In this document: in pieces, positions 35,077-44,743 of the stretch
How positions within the stretch are numbered: the stretch's first letter is position 1
How the letters are laid out: the number at the start of each line of letters is the position of its first letter
NCBI GenBank assembly: GCA_944389925.1
Contig: CALXOD010000067.1
Location: 1 to 64,000, forward strand
Length of the DNA stretch: 64,000 nt
Direction: 5' to 3'
Source of the DNA: an uncultured Victivallaceae bacterium
GTDB lineage: Bacteria > Verrucomicrobiota > Lentisphaeria > Victivallales > Victivallaceae
Notes under the pieces: model-generated
What the model saw: only the letters and a program-made list of their open reading frames with translations
Databases searched by the model: none
Told to the model about the DNA's origin: nothing
Translations under genes and position numbers: made by a program

Positions 35077-35874
35077 ATGATGAAAAGACATTTTACGCTG
35101 ATCGAGTTGCTGGTGGTGATTGCGATTATCGCGATTCTGGCATCGATGCTGCTGCCGGCGTTGAACCGGGCGCGGGAGACGGCACGGATGGCCTCCTGCA
35201 CGAACAATCTGAAGACTCTCGGCATGTGGCATGCCTTTGATTATGATGGCTTCCTGCCGATGGCGAATACGGCCGCGATCGGGGGGTGGAAGGGAGGGAT
35301 GCGCTGGCCGCAGCTGCTGAGCAAGTTGTACAGCAAGGGGGATTGGCTCTCCTCTTTTAGCAAAGTGAGAACGGCGACCAATCCCTTCAACTGCCCGTCC
35401 GTCATTCCGACGGCGCAGCAGCTGCAGGCGGAAAAAGGATACAAAGATCTGGTGATTAATACCTATCTGCGCCTGTGGGCTTTGCAGTGGGCGCAGTATA
35501 CTCCGCTCCCGGTAGCTGATCAATATATGCAGAACGGCAATACATTTGTGAAAACCACGCGAATCACGCATCCTTCTGTGGGAATCACCATCGTGGACGC
35601 TGCCGCATCGAAGTCTACAAACAGTACTTATACGACGGGTTATAACAACGCCTACAGTAACTCTGCCTCAATCTGGATGCTGCGGGATCTGCAGGCGCAG
35701 AGTCTTTACGATGAAGCGGGACAGCCACGTCCCTTCGTCGGGCATCGGGGAGATGGTTTTTCAACCTCGTTGTTGTTTGTGGACGGACATGCCGCAGCAC
35801 AAAACCGCATGAGTCTCAAGAAACATCAGGGGGACCTTGGCCATCAGAAGCAGCATCTGGCCGATGGAAACTGA
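35077..35874 (+). CDS. Prepilin N-terminal domain protein
   Basis: A 265-residue DUF1559-like pseudopilin, ATG 35077 (or 35080) after AGGAGA. Leader MMKRH, helix [20 protein letters not shown], then '[21 protein letters not shown]'. The C-terminal signature is '[18 protein letters not shown]', a relaxed H-x(n)-D-G-H. His precedes the cleavage site. It lies between a sugar-type regulator and a secreted propeller protein and shares the ATTTGCAAATGA site with the latter, suggesting joint regulation. Confidence 0.8.
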
Positions 35875-35932: not shown

Positions 35933-37894
35933 ATGAGGAAAAAACTGGCAGCCTTGAATCTGGCTCTGCTGGCCGCCTGGAGTGCCGTTGCCATGACGGA
36001 TCTCGGCAATGGTTTCACGGACCATGGCATCTGTACGCCGGTCAGCAGCAATAAAGGAGTGACTACCGCCGTTGGAGCACGAGGACAGGACGTTCTGTTA
36101 TCGCTTTTTGCTGATTATCGTGGATGCAACGGAATATATATGATTGATCCGGCAACAGGCGAACAGGAGTTTTTTGAGCTGCCTTTTGCGCCGAGTGGGC
36201 ATTACGGCGTTTTTTCATCCTTATACAGTCGGGGGAATCGATATTATTCCCATCATAGCGGTCATTTGACGGAATTCGATCCGGTGACGAAGTCCTTCAA
36301 AGTATTTCCCACCCATACCGGAATGGGGATGGCAATGACTGAAGATGATGAGGGGACCATCTGGACCGTTACCTATCCCAACAGCGGATTGGTGGGATAC
36401 AATCCGAAAACTGGTTATTTCAAGGACTTTGGAAGTCTGCGCCGAGAGAATTGGGCACAATATCACCGGACGATCGCGGCAGACGATGCCGGTTGGCTCT
36501 ATTTTGGTGTCGGTAACACTCGGGCGCAACTGGTTGGATTTCATCCGGCTTCCGGAAAAAAAGTGGAATTTCTCTCTGAAAGTCAGCGTCCTTCCGGAAG
36601 CAGCGCAATGGTGTTTCGGGCGGAAGACGGTAAAGTCTATGGAGCCGTCGCTCCTACGCAGAATCAGCGGGATGTCGCGGAGGCATTCGAAAAAGTGCGC
36701 AATCTCAAGCCGGCACCGCAGTGGTACGAATTTTACCGTGGGGAAATGAGACCGGTTGACGGGGTACCGCAACTGACGCTGCGTAAGATTGATACCGGCT
36801 CACAATCGTTTCAGAACTATCGTTTTCGGGATGGTTGGAAGATCAAACGTTTTGATCCGGTGGAACGGGCAGTGCGGTTTATCGACCGAGACGGAAATAA
36901 AAAAGAATTTCGCATGGAATATCCGACCGAAGGCGCCCATGTCTCCAGTCTGGCTGCGACCGGAAATGGTCTGATTACCGGGGGGACATCGTTCCCGATG
37001 CGCAATTTCGTTTATGATCCGCAGAAGGACACGATGATTAATCGGAATGGCGCGGTGCAGTGGAATACCCTGTTGCCGTGGAAGAACCACCTGTTTGTCG
37101 GTGCGTATAACGGTGGTTTTCTGATCGATTGGCAGCTGGACAAGCCGTTTGATGGTATCCCTCGTTTTGTCACGCAGGCGAAGACCAATCCCCGGTGCAT
37201 TAATCAGGCCGGCAAGGAGCTGATTCGTCCGCATGTATTGAAGATCACGGCGGACGGCAAGGTGGTCCTGATGGGCGGCACACCGGAATATGGCCACACC
37301 GGCGGCGGTCTGGCCTTGTGGAACCGGGAAACGAATGAGTTCACGGTGATTCCCAATCGGGATTTGATTCCGGATCACAGCATTTATGCATTGGCACCGC
37401 TGCCGGACGGACGGATTTTCGGCGGAACGACGGTAGAGGCGGGAACCGGTGGGGAACAGAAGGCGCGACAGGCGAAGTTCTTCGAATTTGATTTGAAATC
37501 CCGGAAAATCGTTCGGGAATTCGATGGGATTCCGAAGGCGACGACGATTCACGATCTGACGGTGCTTCCGGACGGCAAGATTCTCGGAATTGCGGACAAA
37601 AAAGAATTTTTCCTCTTTGACCCCGCGACGGGCAAAGTGGTGCGGCGCTGGAATTCCGGACGGTTCGGATTGGCGGCGTGGCAGCAGGGCCCGCGGATGT
37701 TTGTGCGGAACGGGGACGACGTGTATGTACTGTTTCGCCGGCATATCGTGAAAGTAAATCCGGATCAAGGGGAACTGATCGAACTGGCGGAATCTCCGGT
37801 GGAGATCCTCACCGGCGGGGATTGGCTGGACGGCCGGATTTACTTCGCCAACGGCTCCCGGTTGTACAGCTATCAGGTGCCGGAAAAACAATAG
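35933..37894 (+). CDS. Secreted beta-propeller protein
   Basis: A 653-residue protein with a signal peptide (MRKKLAALNLALLAAWSAVA, cut near residue 20) and repeated strands of the type 'G-x-I-Y-x-x-D-P-A-T-G-E', 'G-H-L-T-E-F-D-P-V-T-K', 'G-L-V-G-Y-N-P-K-T-G', 'A-Q-L-V-G-F-H-P-A-S-G', 'L-F-D-P-A-T-G-K'. These indicate a propeller of about 40-50-residue blades, comparable to Vgb/two-component-regulator propeller repeats. No catalytic motif is evident; it may be a periplasmic or outer-membrane glycan-binding protein or lyase-like propeller. GAAAGG precedes ATG 35933. A 12-bp operator shared with the pseudopilin gene lies just upstream. Confidence 0.75.
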   Translation: MRKKLAALNLALLAAWSAVAMTDLGNGFTDHGICTPVSSNKGVTTAVGARGQDVLLSLFADYRGCNGIYMIDPATGEQEFFELPFAPSGHYGVFSSLYSRGNRYYSHHSGHLTEFDPVTKSFKVFPTHTGMGMAMTEDDEGTIWTVTYPNSGLVGYNPKTGYFKDFGSLRRENWAQYHRTIAADDAGWLYFGVGNTRAQLVGFHPASGKKVEFLSESQRPSGSSAMVFRAEDGKVYGAVAPTQNQRDVAEAFEKVRNLKPAPQWYEFYRGEMRPVDGVPQLTLRKIDTGSQSFQNYRFRDGWKIKRFDPVERAVRFIDRDGNKKEFRMEYPTEGAHVSSLAATGNGLITGGTSFPMRNFVYDPQKDTMINRNGAVQWNTLLPWKNHLFVGAYNGGFLIDWQLDKPFDGIPRFVTQAKTNPRCINQAGKELIRPHVLKITADGKVVLMGGTPEYGHTGGGLALWNRETNEFTVIPNRDLIPDHSIYALAPLPDGRIFGGTTVEAGTGGEQKARQAKFFEFDLKSRKIVREFDGIPKATTIHDLTVLPDGKILGIADKKEFFLFDPATGKVVRRWNSGRFGLAAWQQGPRMFVRNGDDVYVLFRRHIVKVNPDQGELIELAESPVEILTGGDWLDGRIYFANGSRLYSYQVPEKQ

Positions 37895-37979: not shown

Positions 37980-38008
37980 TTGACAACGGGCAATTTCCGT
38001 GCCATCTT
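37980..38008 (+). promoter_or_regulatory. Candidate trp promoter
   Basis: Perfect -35 TTGACA (37980-37985), 17 bases, weak -10 CATCTT (38003-38008). A start about seven bases on would make the leader peptide mRNA nearly leaderless, which fits the absence of a ribosome binding site before its ATG. A second possible -10 (GATAAT, about 37943) lies upstream. Confidence 0.4.
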
Positions 38009-38015
38009 AAAAAAT

Positions 38016-38066
38016 ATGAAATACTCGACATACAATCGTAACACGGGTCGATGGCTCTGGCGGTAA
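38016..38066 (+). CDS. trpL: trp operon leader peptide
   Basis: A 16-residue open frame MKYSTYNRNTGRWLWR with TAA stop. Trp codons are numbers 13 and 15 (TGG at 38052 and 38058), two of the last four residues, as in classical trp leader peptides. It ends inside segment 1 of a four-segment attenuator immediately before trpE. No Shine-Dalgarno sequence precedes it. Only function-by-position supports the call, but the coincidence of two tandem-spaced Trp codons, pairing segments and trpE is strong. Confidence 0.85.
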   Translation: MKYSTYNRNTGRWLWR

Positions 38067-38153
38067 ATCCGCCGGGGCAGTGTTGTCGTTTGTTGGTCAG
38101 ATTCTGAAGAAACCGGCGGTGGGAACGCATTTTGCTTCTGCCGCCGTTTTTTT
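38057..38153 (+). promoter_or_regulatory. trp attenuator (segments 1-4)
   Basis: Segment 1 CTGGCGG (38057-38063) pairs with segment 2 CCGCCGG (38069-38075). Segment 2 is also the exact complement of segment 3 CCGGCGG (38113-38119). Segment 3 pairs with segment 4 CCGCCG (38141-38146), which is followed by seven U (38147-38153). With Trp abundant, 1:2 and the 3:4 terminator form. With a ribosome stalled at the Trp codons, 1 is masked and 2:3 antiterminates. Confidence 0.85.
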
Positions 38154-38172
38154 GTATTGAAAATTCTGAGAC

Positions 38173-38217
38173 CGCCGCGCCCTGGGAATAGGCATTCCGG
38201 GCGCGGCGTTTTTTTTT
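38173..38217 (+). terminator. Second intrinsic terminator before trpE
   Basis: CGCCGCGCCC (38173-38182) / GGGCGCGGCG (38199-38208), with an additional inner GGAAT/ATTCC stem, then nine T. It is stronger than the attenuator hairpin and lies 27 bases before the trpE ATG. Confidence 0.92.
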
Positions 38218-38243
38218 ACAGCAATTCATGGAGAAAAATCAAG

Positions 38244-39725
38244 ATGGCACAGATGAGTTTCAGGGAATTTGAGGAGGCCTGCGGGCGCGGCAATCTCGTG
38301 CCGGTCTGCCGGGAAGTGTTGGCGGATCTGGAGACGCCGGTGTCAGTGCTGGCACGGTTTGCGGAAGATGAACATGTGTTTTTGCTGGAGAGTGTCGAAG
38401 GCGGCGAGCGTTTCGGACGCTATTCTTTTATAGGAGTACGTCCCCGGGGAGTGTTCACCGTCGAGGACGGCAAGCCGTATCTGACCGGGCGCGACGGAGC
38501 GCGCGTCGAACTGCCCGCACCGGATGGGGCGTTTACGGCGTTACGTGCGTTACTGAAGGAGGTTGTCCCCGCAGACGTGCCGGGGCTGCCGCCGTTGTTC
38601 GGTGGCGCGGTCGGTTACATCGGGTACGAGACGGTGCGGGAATTCGAATCGCTCGCCATTCCGGTGCCGCCGCCCGGAGAACCGTCGGCGGCGATGCTGA
38701 TCACTGACGAAATGATCGTGTTCGACAACGTCCGGCATACCATCCGGCTGGTGGTATGTGTGCGACCTGAAGAATTTGCAACGCGACATGAGGCCTATGA
38801 AGATGCATTGCGGCGGCTGGAGGAACTGGCGGCGATCCTGCGTCGTCCTGCGGCAGTGCCGATGGAACCTCCGGTTCGGGCGCCGCGGCCGGAAGGAAAT
38901 CTGACGCGGGATGAATTTGGAGAAATGGTGGAGAAAGCCCGGGAACAGATCCGCGCCGGAGAAGCGATTCAGGTGGTACTGTCTCAGAAATTTTCCGCCC
39001 CGGCCGTCTCTTCCGGATTGCAACTGTATCGGGCGCTGCGGCTGGTCAACCCGTCACCCTATACATTCTACCTCAAAATCGGCGATCGCACGTTGGTCGG
39101 TTCTTCGCCGGAAACGATGGTCAAACTGGAGGACGGCTGCTGTTCTCTGCGTCCCATTGCCGGGACCCGCCGTCGGGGCGCCACTCCCGCTCAGGATCGG
39201 GCGCTTGCCGATGAACTATTGCGGGACGAAAAGGAGCGGGCGGAGCATCTGATGCTGGTCGATCTCGGGCGGAACGACCTTGGTCGGGTGGCCCGCCCGG
39301 GGAGTGTGCAGGTGAAATCCTTCATGACTGTGGAGCGTTACAGCCACGTTATGCATCTGGTCAGTTCCGTGGATGCTGTGATGGCGGAAGATTTGGATGC
39401 GTTTGATCTGGTTCGGGCGGTGTTTCCGGCGGGGACGTTGTCCGGGGCACCGAAAATCCGGGCCATGGAATTGATCGGGGAACTGGAGCAGACCCCGCGC
39501 GGCGTATACGGTGGCGCAGTTGGTTATTTCAGCTATACCGGAAATCTGGACCTGGCCATCACAATCCGCACGCTGGAATTGCATGATGGCCGGGTGACGG
39601 TGCAGACGGGGGCCGGAATTGTGTACGATTCGGATCCGGATCGGGAGTATGAAGAGACGTTGAACAAAGCCGCCGCGGTTTTTACGGCAATCCGTCTGGC
39701 CGCGAACGGATTGGAACTGGAATGA
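38244..39725 (+). CDS. trpE: Anthranilate synthase component I
   Basis: ATG 38244 after GGAGA (an in-frame TTG at 38157 lies inside the leader terminator and is rejected). The 493-residue protein has the N-terminal tryptophan-binding L-L-E-S at about residues 46-49 and 'RFGRYSFIG'. The chorismate-binding C-terminal domain includes 'IQVVLSQKF', 'PIAGTRRRG', 'ELLRDEKERAEHLMLVDLGRNDLGRV' and 'GAPKIRAMELI'. It makes anthranilate from chorismate with TrpG and is probably feedback-inhibited by tryptophan. First gene of a complete trpEGDCFBA operon under attenuation control. Confidence 0.96.
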   Translation: MAQMSFREFEEACGRGNLVPVCREVLADLETPVSVLARFAEDEHVFLLESVEGGERFGRYSFIGVRPRGVFTVEDGKPYLTGRDGARVELPAPDGAFTALRALLKEVVPADVPGLPPLFGGAVGYIGYETVREFESLAIPVPPPGEPSAAMLITDEMIVFDNVRHTIRLVVCVRPEEFATRHEAYEDALRRLEELAAILRRPAAVPMEPPVRAPRPEGNLTRDEFGEMVEKAREQIRAGEAIQVVLSQKFSAPAVSSGLQLYRALRLVNPSPYTFYLKIGDRTLVGSSPETMVKLEDGCCSLRPIAGTRRRGATPAQDRALADELLRDEKERAEHLMLVDLGRNDLGRVARPGSVQVKSFMTVERYSHVMHLVSSVDAVMAEDLDAFDLVRAVFPAGTLSGAPKIRAMELIGELEQTPRGVYGGAVGYFSYTGNLDLAITIRTLELHDGRVTVQTGAGIVYDSDPDREYEETLNKAAAVFTAIRLAANGLELE

Positions 39726-39741
39726 CGAAGGAGGTGCCGCG

Positions 39742-40341
39742 ATGATTCTGGTCATTGATAATTACGATTCATTCACCTACAATCTGGTGCATTTGCTGTA
39801 TACCCTGACGCCGCAGGTACTGGTGCGGCGCAATCGGGAAATTACCGTGGACGAAGTCTTGGCGCTGCGTCCGGAGGCGATCGTGCTTTCCCCGGGCCCC
39901 GGACGGCCGGAGAAGGCCGGCATCATGCCGGAATTGATCCGGCGTGCCTTCCGGGAGATCCCGCTGCTCGGCGTCTGTCTGGGGCATCAGGCGATCGGAC
40001 AGGCGTTCGGCGGCGAGGTAGTCGGCGCCAAAGAGATCATGCACGGGAAATCCTCGGACATCTTTCATGACGGAAAAGGGGTGTTTGCCGGACTGGAATC
40101 GCCGTTTCGGGCGGTACGGTATCATTCACTGGCGCTGCGAGAAGCGTCTCTGCCGCCGGAGCTGGAGGTGACGGCCCGGACGGCGGATGGGGAGGTTATG
40201 GGGATCCGGCATCGGGAATTTCCGGTGGAGGGGATTCAGTACCACCCGGAATCGATCATGACTGCTACCGGAAAGCGCCAGCTGGCTAATTTCGTCCGGA
40301 TGGCCGGAGCATATCGCCGCGGTACTAGTGGAAGGGGGTGA
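39742..40341 (+). CDS. trpG: Anthranilate synthase component II (glutamine amidotransferase)
   Basis: A 199-residue class I amidotransferase. 'VIDNYDSFTYNLVHLL' at the N-terminus, oxyanion strand 'LSPGPGRPEKAG', nucleophile Cys in G-V-C-L-G-H-Q (about residue 79), and the His-Glu pair in 'GIQYHPESI'. It releases ammonia from glutamine for TrpE. It is not fused to trpD. The H-G-K-S-S segment is typical of TrpG/PabA. GGAGG precedes the ATG. Confidence 0.95.
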   Translation: MILVIDNYDSFTYNLVHLLYTLTPQVLVRRNREITVDEVLALRPEAIVLSPGPGRPEKAGIMPELIRRAFREIPLLGVCLGHQAIGQAFGGEVVGAKEIMHGKSSDIFHDGKGVFAGLESPFRAVRYHSLALREASLPPELEVTARTADGEVMGIRHREFPVEGIQYHPESIMTATGKRQLANFVRMAGAYRRGTSGRG

Positions 40342-40343
40342 AC

Positions 40344-41354
40344 ATGCTGCGGGAATTTCTGGAAAAAGTGCTGGCCGGACACGACCTTACCGCCGGAGAG
40401 ATGGAGCGCGTGGTCGCATTGCTGACCGGCGGCGAAGTCCCGCACGTACAGATCGGTGCCTTCCTCGCCGCACTGCGGATGAAGGGCGAATCCCGTTCTG
40501 AACTAGTTGGAGCTGCCCGAATGTTGCGGCGTCATGCCACCTTTATCGACTGTGGCTGTCGGGACGTGGTGGATGTGGTAGGTACCGGCGGAGACGGGGG
40601 GATTTCGTTCAACATTTCGACGACGTCGGCCCTGGTGGCGGCGGGCGCGGGAGTGGTGGTCGCCAAACACGGAAACCGGGCGGTTTCCGGCAAATGCGGA
40701 TCAGCCGACGTGCTGGCGGAACTGGGGTTCAATCTGGAGACGACGCCGGCGCAGATGGAGTATTCGATCCGGGAACACGGTATCGGTTTCCTCTTCGCGC
40801 AGAAAATGCACCCTATGCTCGGTGCCGTGGCGGTTTTACGGCGGGAATTGCGGGTACGCACGATCTTCAACATGCTCGGGCCGCTCTGCAATCCGGCAGG
40901 AGCCTCCGCCATGGTGCTGGGGGTTTACGACGCCGGACTGACGGAATTGTTTGCCGAGGCGTTGGCTGATCTCGGGATCCGCCGGGCCATGGTGGTGCAC
41001 GGGCACGACGGGCTGGATGAGATCAGTTGCGCCGCACCGACCCGGGTGACGGAGTTGAAGAACGGAACCCTGACCAGTTACGAACTCTTTCCGGAGATGC
41101 TGCTGGGGCGGGCGTTTCCCGCCGGATCATTGCGAGGCGGCGATGCGGCGGAAAACGCCGCGGTGCTGCTCGACGTGCTGGAAGGGCGTGATCACGGTGC
41201 TCCACAGGCGGTGGTGCTGCTGAACGCGGGTGCGGCGATTTATGTCGGCGGCCTGGCGGAATCGCTGCAGGAGGGGATGGCACGTGCCGCCGCCGCCATC
41301 GATTCCGGCGCGGCCCGGGAGAAACTGCGATTGCTGATTGAGGAGAGCCTGTGA
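40344..41354 (+). CDS. trpD: Anthranilate phosphoribosyltransferase
   Basis: ATG 40344, six bases after AAGGGGG; an in-frame GTG at 40338 is the alternative. The 336-residue protein has the PRPP loop 'VGTGGDGGISFNISTTSALVAAGAGVVVAKHGNRAVSGKCGSAD' and 'MHPMLGAVAVLRRELRVRTIFNMLGPLCNPA'. It transfers phosphoribose from PRPP to anthranilate. Only two bases separate it from the trpG stop, and its stop overlaps the trpC start. Confidence 0.95.
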   Translation: MLREFLEKVLAGHDLTAGEMERVVALLTGGEVPHVQIGAFLAALRMKGESRSELVGAARMLRRHATFIDCGCRDVVDVVGTGGDGGISFNISTTSALVAAGAGVVVAKHGNRAVSGKCGSADVLAELGFNLETTPAQMEYSIREHGIGFLFAQKMHPMLGAVAVLRRELRVRTIFNMLGPLCNPAGASAMVLGVYDAGLTELFAEALADLGIRRAMVVHGHDGLDEISCAAPTRVTELKNGTLTSYELFPEMLLGRAFPAGSLRGGDAAENAAVLLDVLEGRDHGAPQAVVLLNAGAAIYVGGLAESLQEGMARAAAAIDSGAAREKLRLLIEESL

Positions 41355-42130
41355 TGAGCGACATTTTGAAAACCATTGCAGAACGTACACGTCGACGGGT
41401 GGCAACGGCGAAACTGGCCGTGCCCGTTGCCATGCTGGAAGCGCACCTGGAGACTCTGTCGCCGTGTCGGGATTTTCCGGCGGCGCTGCGGGGAAAGGGC
41501 ACGCGGGTGATTGCCGAACTCAAAGCTGCTTCTCCTTCCAAAGGGGTGATTCGGACAGATTTTCCGGTGGCGGAGCTGGCGCGGGAGTTGGAGTTGGCGG
41601 GGGCGGCGGCGCTGTCGGTGCTGACAGAACCGGAATTTTTCCGCGGTCGCCTGGAGAATCTGGAGCTGGCGCGGCGGGAAGTCCGGATTCCGCTGTTGCG
41701 CAAGGACTTTGTTGTGGATGAATATCAATTGCTGGAAGCGCGTGTCGCCGGTGCCGACGCGGTACTGCTGATCGCGGCGCTGCTGACGCCGGAAGAATTG
41801 CACCGCCTGACTGACCGGGCGCACCGGCTGGGATTGGCGGTGCTGGGCGAAGCCCATGACGAGGCAGAGCTGGGGATGCTGCTGGATTCCGGTGTGGACA
41901 TGATCGGGGTCAATGCCCGTGACCTTCGCACCTTCCGAACCGATCTTGCCACGACGGCCCGATTGTTGCAACGGATTCCGCCGGAACGCCTTCCCGTGGC
42001 GGAAAGCGCGATCCGCGACCGGGCCGATGTGAGGGGCATGGAAGCAGCCGGAGCCGCCGCGCTGCTGGTCGGGGAAACGCTGATGCGCGCTCCGCATCCG
42101 GGCATGGCGCTGAAAGGATTGCTGGGATGA
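41354..42130 (+). CDS. trpC: Indole-3-glycerol phosphate synthase
   Basis: ATG 41354 overlaps the trpD stop (TGATG). The 258-residue TIM barrel contains 'VIAELKAASPSKGVIR' (catalytic Lys), 'SVLTEPEFFRG', 'PLLRKDFVVDEYQLLEARVAGADAVLLIAA', 'GVNARDLRTF' and 'VAESAIRDRADV' with 'LLVGETLMR'. It converts CdRP to indoleglycerol phosphate. Its stop overlaps trpF by four bases. Confidence 0.95.
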   Translation: MSDILKTIAERTRRRVATAKLAVPVAMLEAHLETLSPCRDFPAALRGKGTRVIAELKAASPSKGVIRTDFPVAELARELELAGAAALSVLTEPEFFRGRLENLELARREVRIPLLRKDFVVDEYQLLEARVAGADAVLLIAALLTPEELHRLTDRAHRLGLAVLGEAHDEAELGMLLDSGVDMIGVNARDLRTFRTDLATTARLLQRIPPERLPVAESAIRDRADVRGMEAAGAAALLVGETLMRAPHPGMALKGLLG

Positions 42131-42741
42131 ACATTCCGGTCAAAATCTGCGGGCTGACCCGGCGCTGCGACGTCGAACTGGCCGTGGAACTGGGCGCGGC
42201 GTATGTCGGATTCGTCCTGGCTCCGGAATCCCCACGCCGGGTGACTCCGGATGCGCTGGCCGGTCTGACCCGGGATCTGCCGCGGAGCGTGCGGCGGGTC
42301 GGGGTTTTCGTCGATGCTTCCCCTGCATTCATCCGGGAAGCCGCGGCGGCAGGCCAGCTGGATGTCGCGCAGTTGTACGGCGGCGATTCGGCCGCGTTCA
42401 TCCGGGAACTGCCGGAGCTGGAAATCTGGCGGGCGGTCCCGGTAACCGGCCCGTCGGCGGTGGCGGCGTTCGCGGAAGATCCGGCGGCACGGCTGGTGGC
42501 GGATGCCGCACGCGGCGGTTCCGGCGTCCGCTGCGACTGGGAAGCTGCGGCGGAACTGGCCCGTCGCCGGTCGCTGCTGCTGGCGGGCGGATTGACGGCT
42601 GCCAATGTGAGGGAGGCCATTCGCCGGGTGCGGCCGGCGGGGGTGGATCTTTCCAGTGGCGTGGAATCGGTCCCGGGGGTGAAGAGTACGGAAAAATTAC
42701 GGGAATTTTTTGATATTTTCAATCATATGGAGGAGTTATGA
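42127..42741 (+). CDS. trpF: Phosphoribosylanthranilate isomerase
   Basis: A 204-residue TIM barrel: K-I-C-G-L-T-R at residues 6-12 (catalytic Cys), '[17 protein letters not shown]', 'RVGVFVDAS', and C-terminal '[44 protein letters not shown]'. The usual V-Q-L-H-G reads A-Q-L-Y-G. It isomerises PRA to CdRP. Coupled by ATGA overlaps with trpC and trpB. Confidence 0.93.
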
Positions 42742-43949
42742 AAACCCATTACGGTATTTATGGCGGGCAGTATGTGGCGGAAACCCTGATGCCGGTACTG
42801 CAGGAGGTGGAGACTGCCTATGAATCGGCCCGGCGTGATCCGGCATTCGTGCGGGAACTGGCGGAGCTGTTGACGGATTACGTCGGTCGGGAGTCACCGC
42901 TTTATTTCGCACGCAATCTGACGCGGTATTGCGGAGGAGCGCGCATTTTTCTCAAGCGGGAGGATCTCAACCATACCGGTGCACACAAGGTGAATAACAC
43001 GATCGGACAGGCATTGCTGGCCCGGCGCATGGGCAAAAGGCGACTGATCGCAGAAACCGGCGCGGGAATGCACGGAGTGGCGACGGCGACGGTGGCGGCG
43101 CTTTTCGGCATGGAGTGCGAGGTGTTCATGGGGGCGCTCGATGTGAAGCGGCAGGCCCCCAATGTCGAGCGCATGCAGGTGCTCGGTGCCAAAGTAACGG
43201 CGGTCGACGCCGGTTCCGCCACCCTCAAAGACGCGATGAACGAGGCGATCCGTGACTGGACGGCGACGGCGGATCACACGTTTTATGTAATCGGCACGGT
43301 GGCCGGGCCTTATCCTTATCCACGGATCGTGCGGGATTTTCAGTCGGTTATCGGTTGTGAAACGCGGCGGCAGTGTCTGGAGAAGACCGGAAAACTTCCA
43401 GATGAAGTGATCGCCTGCGTCGGCGGCGGCAGCAATGCGATGGGGATGTTTGCCGGATTTCTGGATGATGCATCGGTCAAGCTCACCGGCGTGGAGGCGG
43501 GCGGTGAGGGGCTGGAAACCGGACGTCACGCGGCCAGCATCAACGGCGGGCGTGTCGGTGTGTTGCACGGCAGCAAATGTTATCTTTTGCAGGATCGGGA
43601 TGGCCAGATTCTGGAAACGCATTCGGTTTCGGCGGGGCTGGACTATCCCGGCGTCGGGCCGGAACACTGCCTGCTGGCGGATACGAAACGGGCACGTTAC
43701 ACGACGGTGAACGATGAAGAGGCGATCCGCGCCTTCGAACTGTTGTCGCGCCTGGAAGGAATTATTCCGGCGCTGGAGTCGTCCCATGCAGTAGCGCAGG
43801 TGCTTCGGACGGCCGGAACGTATTCTCCGGATGCCGTGATCGTCGTCAATCTTTCCGGACGCGGCGACAAGGATATGGACAGTGTCCGGCGTTACCGGGA
43901 AACACACCCTGGAGAAGCAGCAACCAATCAATCAGAAACACAGGAGTGA
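42738..43949 (+). CDS. trpB: Tryptophan synthase beta chain
   Basis: A 403-residue PLP enzyme with the Schiff-base Lys in '[17 protein letters not shown]' (about residue 87), '[13 protein letters not shown]', phosphate-binding '[12 protein letters not shown]' and '[15 protein letters not shown]'. It condenses indole and serine and forms the alpha2-beta2 complex with TrpA. It is the classical TrpB1 type. GGAGG precedes the ATG, which overlaps the trpF stop. Confidence 0.96.
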
Positions 43950-43957
43950 GAAACATC

Positions 43958-44743
43958 ATGGATCGCATTGCAGGAATTTTTGAACGCTGTCGGAAAGAGG
44001 AACGGCCGGCACTGACGGTGTTTGCCACTTGCGGCTGCCCGTCTCCGGAAGAGAGCGTGGAACTGATGGAGGAGATCATTGCGCGAGGGGCGGACATTCT
44101 GGAAATCGGCGTACCGTTTTCCGACCCGATGGCGGACGGGGCAGTTATTCAGCAGGCTTCCGATCTGGCGCTGCGGCAGGGAATGACGCTGGAAAAAGTC
44201 CTGGAGACGGCCGGCCGTCTCCGGGCACATCATCCGGAAACCGGACTCATTCTTTTCAGTTATTTCAATGTTCTGCTGCAGTATGGACTGGAACGGTTGA
44301 CCTCACGTCTTGCCGAGCTGGATGTGGACGGTGTGCTGGTGGTGGATCTGCCGTTTGAGGAGCGTGACGAACTGCTGCCGCACTGCCGGGCTCACGGCCT
44401 GCATTTGATTAATCTGGTGTCTCCGGCGACGCCGCCGGAGCGGATGCGGCGCATTGTCGCTGATGCTACCGGTTTCGTCTACTATGTGATGGTGTGCGGA
44501 GTGACCGGGACGCGCGATGAGTTGCCTCCGGAACTGGCAGACAATCTGAACCGGCTGCGTACGGTCAGCCCGGTACCGGTGGCGGCGGGGTTCGGAATCG
44601 CTTCTGGCGAGGCTGCCCGGATGGTCGGACGATACGCGGACGGGGTGATTGTCGGCTCTGCCGCAATGCGTCCGGCAATTTCCGGACGTTCTTTTCCGGA
44701 AATCCGCAAGGAAGTGGGAGCACTGGTCGCTTCTCTGCGGTAA
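43958..44743 (+). CDS. trpA: Tryptophan synthase alpha chain
   Basis: ATG 43958 (in-frame GTG 43946 overlaps the trpB stop and is less likely). The 261-residue barrel has the catalytic Glu and Asp in 'LEIGVPFSDPMADGAVIQQAS', 'GVLVVDLPFEE', 'FVYYVMVCGVTGTR' and 'PVAAGFGIASGEAA'. It cleaves indoleglycerol phosphate to indole. Last gene of the trp operon; no obvious terminator follows, so low read-through into 44943 is possible. Confidence 0.95.
   Translation: MDRIAGIFERCRKEERPALTVFATCGCPSPEESVELMEEIIARGADILEIGVPFSDPMADGAVIQQASDLALRQGMTLEKVLETAGRLRAHHPETGLILFSYFNVLLQYGLERLTSRLAELDVDGVLVVDLPFEERDELLPHCRAHGLHLINLVSPATPPERMRRIVADATGFVYYVMVCGVTGTRDELPPELADNLNRLRTVSPVPVAAGFGIASGEAARMVGRYADGVIVGSAAMRPAISGRSFPEIRKEVGALVASLR

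Follow-up and report, generated by a model that had tools for sequence, protein, structure and literature searches.

The complete trp operon of an uncultured Victivallaceae bacterium, trpEGDCFBA, occupies positions 38244-44743 of the window, by which we mean the whole 64,000-nt stretch of DNA that was analysed (contig CALXOD010000067.1, positions 1 to 64,000, forward strand). Its genes are tightly packed and were confirmed with family models. Upstream of trpE lies a leader with a short Trp-codon ORF, followed by two terminators, T1 and T2 (Table 1). A 653-aa ORF upstream of the leader (35933-37894, + strand) had no NCBIfam match, and the product encoded at 35077-35874 (+ strand) has a type IV pilin/pseudopilin-like N-terminus and no NCBIfam match at 1e-10. 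The sole Rfam match at gathering score in the window was a fluoride riboswitch (RF01734, 58786-58866, - strand, 44.4 bits). A first-pass annotation, made from the sequence alone, had taken the genome to be Lentisphaerota-like. It was right about the phylum, as genomes of the same genus have been deposited as uncultured Lentisphaeria bacteria.

Table 1. Features of the trp leader and operon in the window.
Feature	Position	Strand	Remarks
-35 box TTGACA of the putative trp promoter	37980..37985	+	read from the sequence; spacing as in 30 relatives
-10 box CATCTT	38003..38008	+	weak in the window; TATATT, TATCTT or TGTAAAGT in relatives
Leader peptide ORF, MKYSTYNRNTGRWLWR	38016..38066	+	16 codons and stop; no visible Shine-Dalgarno sequence
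Regulatory Trp codons (Trp13, Trp15)	38052-38054 and 38058-38060	+	
Leader ORF stop TAA	38064-38066	+	
Segment 1, GCUCUGGCGG	38054..38063	+	overlaps Trp and Arg codons
Segment 2, CCGCCGGGGC	38069..38078	+	contains 2a and 2b
Segment 2a (core CCGCCGG)	38069-38075	+	partner is segment 3
Segment 2b (CCGGGGC)	38072-38078	+	partner is the T2 5' arm
Segment 3 (CCGGCGG)	38113..38119	+	
Terminator T1	38114..38153	+	3:4 hairpin 38114-38146, then U7 38147-38153
Terminator T2	38173..38217	+	hairpin 38173-38208, then U9 38209-38217; no leader peptide of its own
Segment 5 (GCCCUGG, in T2 5' arm)	38179..38185	+	complementary to 2b
trpE Shine-Dalgarno sequence GGAG	38230-38233	+	
trpE (anthranilate synthase component I)	38244..39725	+	TIGR00564, 520.9 bits
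trpG	39742-40341	+	
trpD	40338-41354	+	
trpC	41351-42130	+	
trpF	42127-42741	+	
trpB	42738-43949	+	
trpA	43946-44743	+	

The leader ORF was present where the first-pass annotation had read it, and the pairings that it had described were found at their places. In the predicted minimum free energy fold of the window's leader, the 1:2 pairing was 10 bp long and took up all ten bases of segment 2, and the cores of segments 2 and 3 were exact complements. The 3:4 terminator with seven U was also found; however, it does not stand just before trpE as had been claimed, because the stronger T2 intervenes. Segment 2 begins 17 nt from the Trp13 codon and 5 nt from the stop codon. With an assumed ribosome footprint of ~15 nt, constrained folds indicated that a stall at the Trp codon would free segment 2 and that a ribosome at the stop codon would cover it. 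The folding z-score against dinucleotide shuffles was -3.6 for 38016-38160 and -4.5 once the second terminator was included, up to trpE, and the leader fold was more stable than all 200 shuffles. Trp codons clustered upstream of trp genes, mutually exclusive 1:2, 2:3 and 3:4 pairings and a U-tract terminator are what is expected of a leader-peptide trp attenuator, and we regard a basic Trp attenuator at this locus as practically certain.

A T-box, a riboswitch or a known leader was rejected for this region, as the leader had no Rfam match at gathering score, including to Trp_leader (RF00513). A Spot_42 match of 22.7 bits (gathering score, 80) was discarded as terminator-like. Elsewhere in the same genome there were 17 further matches to the W-x-W-R leader pattern, none of which was a short ORF with attenuator anatomy. 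Matches to a five-His-codon pattern for His leaders lay only inside longer frames or had no attenuator anatomy.

A TrpE homologue was found in 81 of 137 genomes at the level of the order, in 130 of 198 at that of the class, and in 334 of the 388 genomes that were sampled across the phylum. About half of the genomes of family f1 (genus g14 and others), rather complete ones included, had no trpE match, which suggests that many close relatives are Trp auxotrophs. From about 110 loci of the class, mostly in metagenome-assembled genomes, we extracted the sequence that precedes trpE and counted ORFs of 10-45 codons with WW or WxW in 350-nt regions. Such an ORF was present in 79 of the 108 upstream regions; dinucleotide shuffles gave a background of 6.9%, and the antisense strand one of 2.8%. 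Families f2-f6 were mostly without it, and some other relatives had a single terminator. Thirty leaders aligned at the ATG were 15-18 codons long, with variable N-terminal codons and C-terminal ends of WxWR, WRWR, WWRWR, WRWW or near variants. These ends are similar because segment 1 has as its core the same UGG-CGG (Trp-Arg) codons that close the peptide. RNAalifold found 1:2, 3:4 and 5:6 with compensatory changes. The first-pass annotation had staked its reading on such an alignment, to be given up if homologous leaders lacked the Trp codons or the pairing segments. The homologous leaders kept both, with the Trp codons near the C-terminus and compensatory changes in the three pairings.

The 30 aligned leaders had a TTGACA or TTGCAA-like box, a spacer of 16-18 nt and then a -10-like hexamer roughly 7-10 nt from the leader ATG, with no visible Shine-Dalgarno sequence. 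The usual distance from a -10 box to the transcription start site is 5-9 nt, and the start site would thus lie at the leader ATG or 1-3 nt upstream. With the promoter so close to the ATG and no visible Shine-Dalgarno sequence, translation of the leader peptide is likely to be leaderless. The earlier remark that the ATG may be nearly leaderless gained support here, as TTGACA and CATCTT would put the window's start site at about the ATG and the spacing was kept in 30 genomes. The first-pass reading was also to be given up if transcription started downstream of 38016; relatives kept the promoter just before the leader ATG. A leaderless trp leader has precedent in Sinorhizobium meliloti, since the available part of the report on the trpL-trpE(G) attenuator gives the RNA 5' end as the ATG of the leader peptide ORF (PMC7298713). 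Both systems would be Trp attenuators with a leaderless leader, although near-leaderlessness in our case is read from promoter position only, the phylum is another, and the same part of that report describes no second terminator (PMC7298713). Because it is conserved and its leader peptide is probably leaderless, the system should be useful for learning how initiation of this kind can match the speed of RNA polymerase.

T2 lies between T1 and trpE, and its hairpin (about -27 kcal/mol) is stronger than T1. In the window, the U-tract of T2 and the trpE ATG are just 26 nt apart, too little space to hold another promoter. No further ORF lies between T1 and T2. The attenuator itself had been read correctly at first pass, but T2 was overlooked, and the mechanism appears to be more than the classical one that had been claimed. 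This order of elements (a single leader peptide, T1, a gap of 9-33 nt, T2 and then trpE) was shared by about 34 leaders from about 13 genera and three families, counts that rest partly on hand reading of sequences and on genus labels plus hand classification; some Lentisphaeria trp leaders had no T2. In erm(K), too, a pair of intrinsic terminators follows a single leader peptide ORF. An unregulated strong terminator in this position would prevent good induction of the operon in starvation, and T2 would therefore have to be regulated. A generic terminator motif of the genome was rejected as an explanation for T2, since the 2.8 Mb contained the pattern of its 3' arm and U-tract only 3 times, and both matches other than T2 itself were inside coding ORFs. 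Also rejected was read-through of T2 from an in-frame upstream trpE start (TTG, 38157). The frame is open in the window, but this route is not general because the relatives' open frames upstream of trpE are mostly too short.

Segment 2b is complementary to segment 5 in the T2 5' arm. For 17 leaders, we calculated duplex energies between each part of the leader and its own T2 5' arm and compared them to those obtained after exchanging arms between genomes. The 2:5 pairing had a z of -3.0 (p 0.001, as with all 2:5 permutation statistics here ignoring the tree), and the control pairings had a z of -3.6 for 1:2, -2.8 for 2:3, -7.3 for 3:4 and -8.3 for 5:6. Segments 1, 3 and 4 and the two linkers (2-3 and T1-T2) were rejected as antiterminators of T2, as none had genome-specific complementarity to it in these 17 leaders. 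Likewise, there was no genome-specific signal for a 2:6 pairing in the exchange test. When 18 nt at a time were compared along the leader from -50 to +65 relative to the stop codon in 15 representatives, the signal for complementarity to the T2 arm was confined to +0 to +10, with a peak at +5 (z -4.3). None of 20 000 permutations was as strong as this signal for segment 2. The p value was at most 0.0004 with any one genome dropped and 0.001 within the window's own family alone. There was no signal within family f10 alone because its sequences are nearly identical. A blind search for the best partner of the T2 arm returned segment 2 in 9 of 15 genera, and shuffles averaged 4.9.

Two alignments gave the same picture. 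In the first (A1, 18 sequences), a 2b:5 helix of 11 pairs was formed in 82% of cells, compared to 23-47% when the partner was shifted by 1-3 columns. Six core pairs were almost always formed, G-C to A-U double changes occurred at columns 38/144 (7 sequences) and 33/149 (3 sequences), and 2a:3 and 2b:5 combined were 91% paired. In the second (A2, 11 sequences, the window included), 2b:5 was formed in 90% of cells, compared to 30-74% after sliding by 1-3 columns, with double changes at 33/142 and 35/140. Examples of the helix are CCGGGGC:GCCCUGG in the window, CCGGAA:UUCCGG in L014, CACUCCG:CGGAGUG in L022, GGCCGGGU:ACCCGGCC in L151 and CAGGGCUGGAU:AUCCGGUCUUG in L178. By these comparisons of sequence, segment 2 coevolves with the T2 5' arm. 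The 2a and 2b parts are adjacent and separate in the A1 leaders, so that 2a:3 and 2b:5 could coexist there as a pseudoknot. In the window's clade, about 4 nt (CCGG) are common to 2a and 2b and the two full pairings cannot coexist; in this clade, a pseudoknot is less likely than strand exchange or partial pairing.

The mechanism that we infer for the living cell, including termination, ribosome stalling, leaderless initiation, the blocking of T2 by 2:5 and the choice between pseudoknot and exchange, would run as follows. When Trp is plentiful, the ribosome would reach the stop codon (38064) and cover segment 2, and both T1 (3:4) and T2 (5:6) would form. When Trp is scarce, the ribosome would stall at Trp13 (38052), masking segment 1 and leaving segment 2 free. 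The freed segment 2 would pair first with segment 3, blocking T1, and its 3' half would pair with the T2 5' arm, as a simultaneous pseudoknot or by strand exchange, blocking T2 and letting RNA polymerase reach trpE. If the leader were not translated, 1:2 would sequester all of segment 2 and both terminators would form. Segment 2 would be the only strand that the ribosome hides or frees, and control of T1 and T2 by one strand would allow an inducible operon to have a second terminator ahead of its genes. In folds of the window's RNA outside the assumed footprint, 2:3 was the minimum energy structure before segment 4 emerged when Trp13 was in the A site and the RNA was occupied up to 38066, and the terminators formed when the ribosome was placed at Trp15 or at the stop codon. 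As is common with attenuators, the outcome at T1 would be kinetic because T1 wins at equilibrium. Similarly, T2 (about 27 kcal/mol) beats any antiterminator at equilibrium, and for this reason the model needs co-transcriptional capture of the T2 5' arm.

Taken together, a ribosome-mediated attenuator of trpEGDCFBA with a probably leaderless leader, in which segment 2 controls two serial terminators, is in our judgment a highly probable reading of the locus. That the 2:5 pairing controls T2 is, as a point of its own, fairly likely. We lean, with some reserve, toward a bipartite antiterminator in which the 5' half of segment 2 opens T1 and the 3' half, which that pairing leaves exposed in its loop, opens T2 by pseudoknot or hand-over. 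This two-gate, one-sensor arrangement would be conserved across Lentisphaeria and possibly in other Verrucomicrobiota.

The simplest alternative is a classical single attenuator at T1 with T2 as a constitutive, leaky backup that lowers basal output independently of the leader. Such a role would suit the strong, canonical character of T2, the general existence of backup terminators and the degenerate U-tract of some relatives (L052 and L035, for example). However, T2 stands ~24-100 nt before trpE, and in several genomes there is no room for a promoter in between, so a backup would cap output in starvation. Its conservation in about 13 genera and a 5' arm that tracks segment 2 of the same genome also argue against this explanation, which we consider unlikely.

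T2 could instead answer to a different signal or factor, such as an RNA-binding protein, NusG/Rho or a small molecule, in a two-input leader like that of Salmonella mgtCBR. T2 does have conserved sequence of its own, and two-signal tandem attenuators exist (PMC3641672). Against this are the lack of an Rfam family at gathering score in the leader and of a second ORF between T1 and T2, and the only covarying partner found for T2 was segment 2; we think this explanation quite improbable. Least credible of all is that there is no ribosome attenuator and that a chance upstream ORF is combined with terminators that belong to the preceding gene (35933-37894). Genes are often followed by intrinsic terminators, but the recurrence of the W-rich ORF in 79 of 108 trpE leaders refutes this idea, and both the compensatory changes in the pairings and the promoter between the upstream gene and the leader contradict it.

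The preferred reading, in which segment 2 governs both terminators, shares much with known attenuators. The trpL leader of E. coli and Salmonella (RF00513) likewise has a short Trp-codon leader peptide, exclusive 1:2, 2:3 and 3:4 pairings and a U-tract terminator, with a similar spacing from Trp codons to segment 2. The leader described here would work alike, yet its sequence is unrelated and outside the Rfam Trp_leader family. Its Trp codons are W-x-W rather than WW, it is probably leaderless with no visible Shine-Dalgarno sequence, and its second terminator appears to be coupled to segment 2. Lopatovskaya and colleagues reportedly published a comparative survey in 2010 (cited in PMC4833913). 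A statement from 2010 restricted leader-peptide systems to Proteobacteria and Actinobacteria, to which a his leader of Firmicutes was then added, and a second tandem terminator was noted in the rimP leader (PMC2965389). In Corynebacterium and Streptomyces, W-rich trp leaders with complementary triples were found by comparative genomics; the available part of that report describes a single terminator and no 2:5 pairing (PMC1262725). The erm(K) macrolide attenuator of Bacillus is reported to be a leader-peptide transcription attenuator with two adjacent Rho-independent terminators (cited in PMC4335068). It senses drug-stalled ribosomes and not an amino acid, and homology is not implied. We found no literature joining Lentisphaerae with leader-peptide attenuators, and none on an amino-acid attenuator in which a single strand acts on two terminators, in a search that covered subscription journals sparsely and may have missed later extensions. 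With these data, Lentisphaeria join the bacteria for which leader-peptide attenuation has been predicted, as a further class. If 2:5 works as proposed, one translation sensor can control two terminators, repression would be tighter and the dose response could sharpen. A design backed by covariation is also available for two-gate RNA switches.

Short WxW upstream ORFs were also observed before trpE in L105 (Planctomycetia), L103 (Hydrogenedentes) and L090 (Syntrophaceae), with the sequences MNRSVNNMFFWRWRLNDR, MFPIDQQVWRWRGAAANA and ...NNWCWR..., respectively, and may be Trp leaders of additional phyla. Outside the class, three genomes from a different Verrucomicrobiota family (L161, L163 and L164) had a RWLWRGDSPERLA-type W-leader followed by two terminators, and in these CCGGA in segment 2 was complementary to UCCGG in the second terminator.

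Salmonella mgtCBR has tandem attenuators in one leader, with two ORFs and two signals (PMC3641672), whereas in the window one ORF and one signal would drive two terminators. Tandem-ORF versions were found in relatives. Seven leaders from six genera (L008, L025, L027, L036, L041, L045 and L053) had two complete leader-peptide attenuators in series upstream of trpE, that is, two W-rich ORFs, each with its own terminator. In L041 and L025, ~370-400 nt upstream of trpE, the stop codon of a mini-ORF overlaps the ATG of a W-rich leader (CTATGA and TTATGA, respectively), an overlap that suggests translational coupling of the two leader ORFs. The mini-ORF of L041 begins directly behind the promoter.
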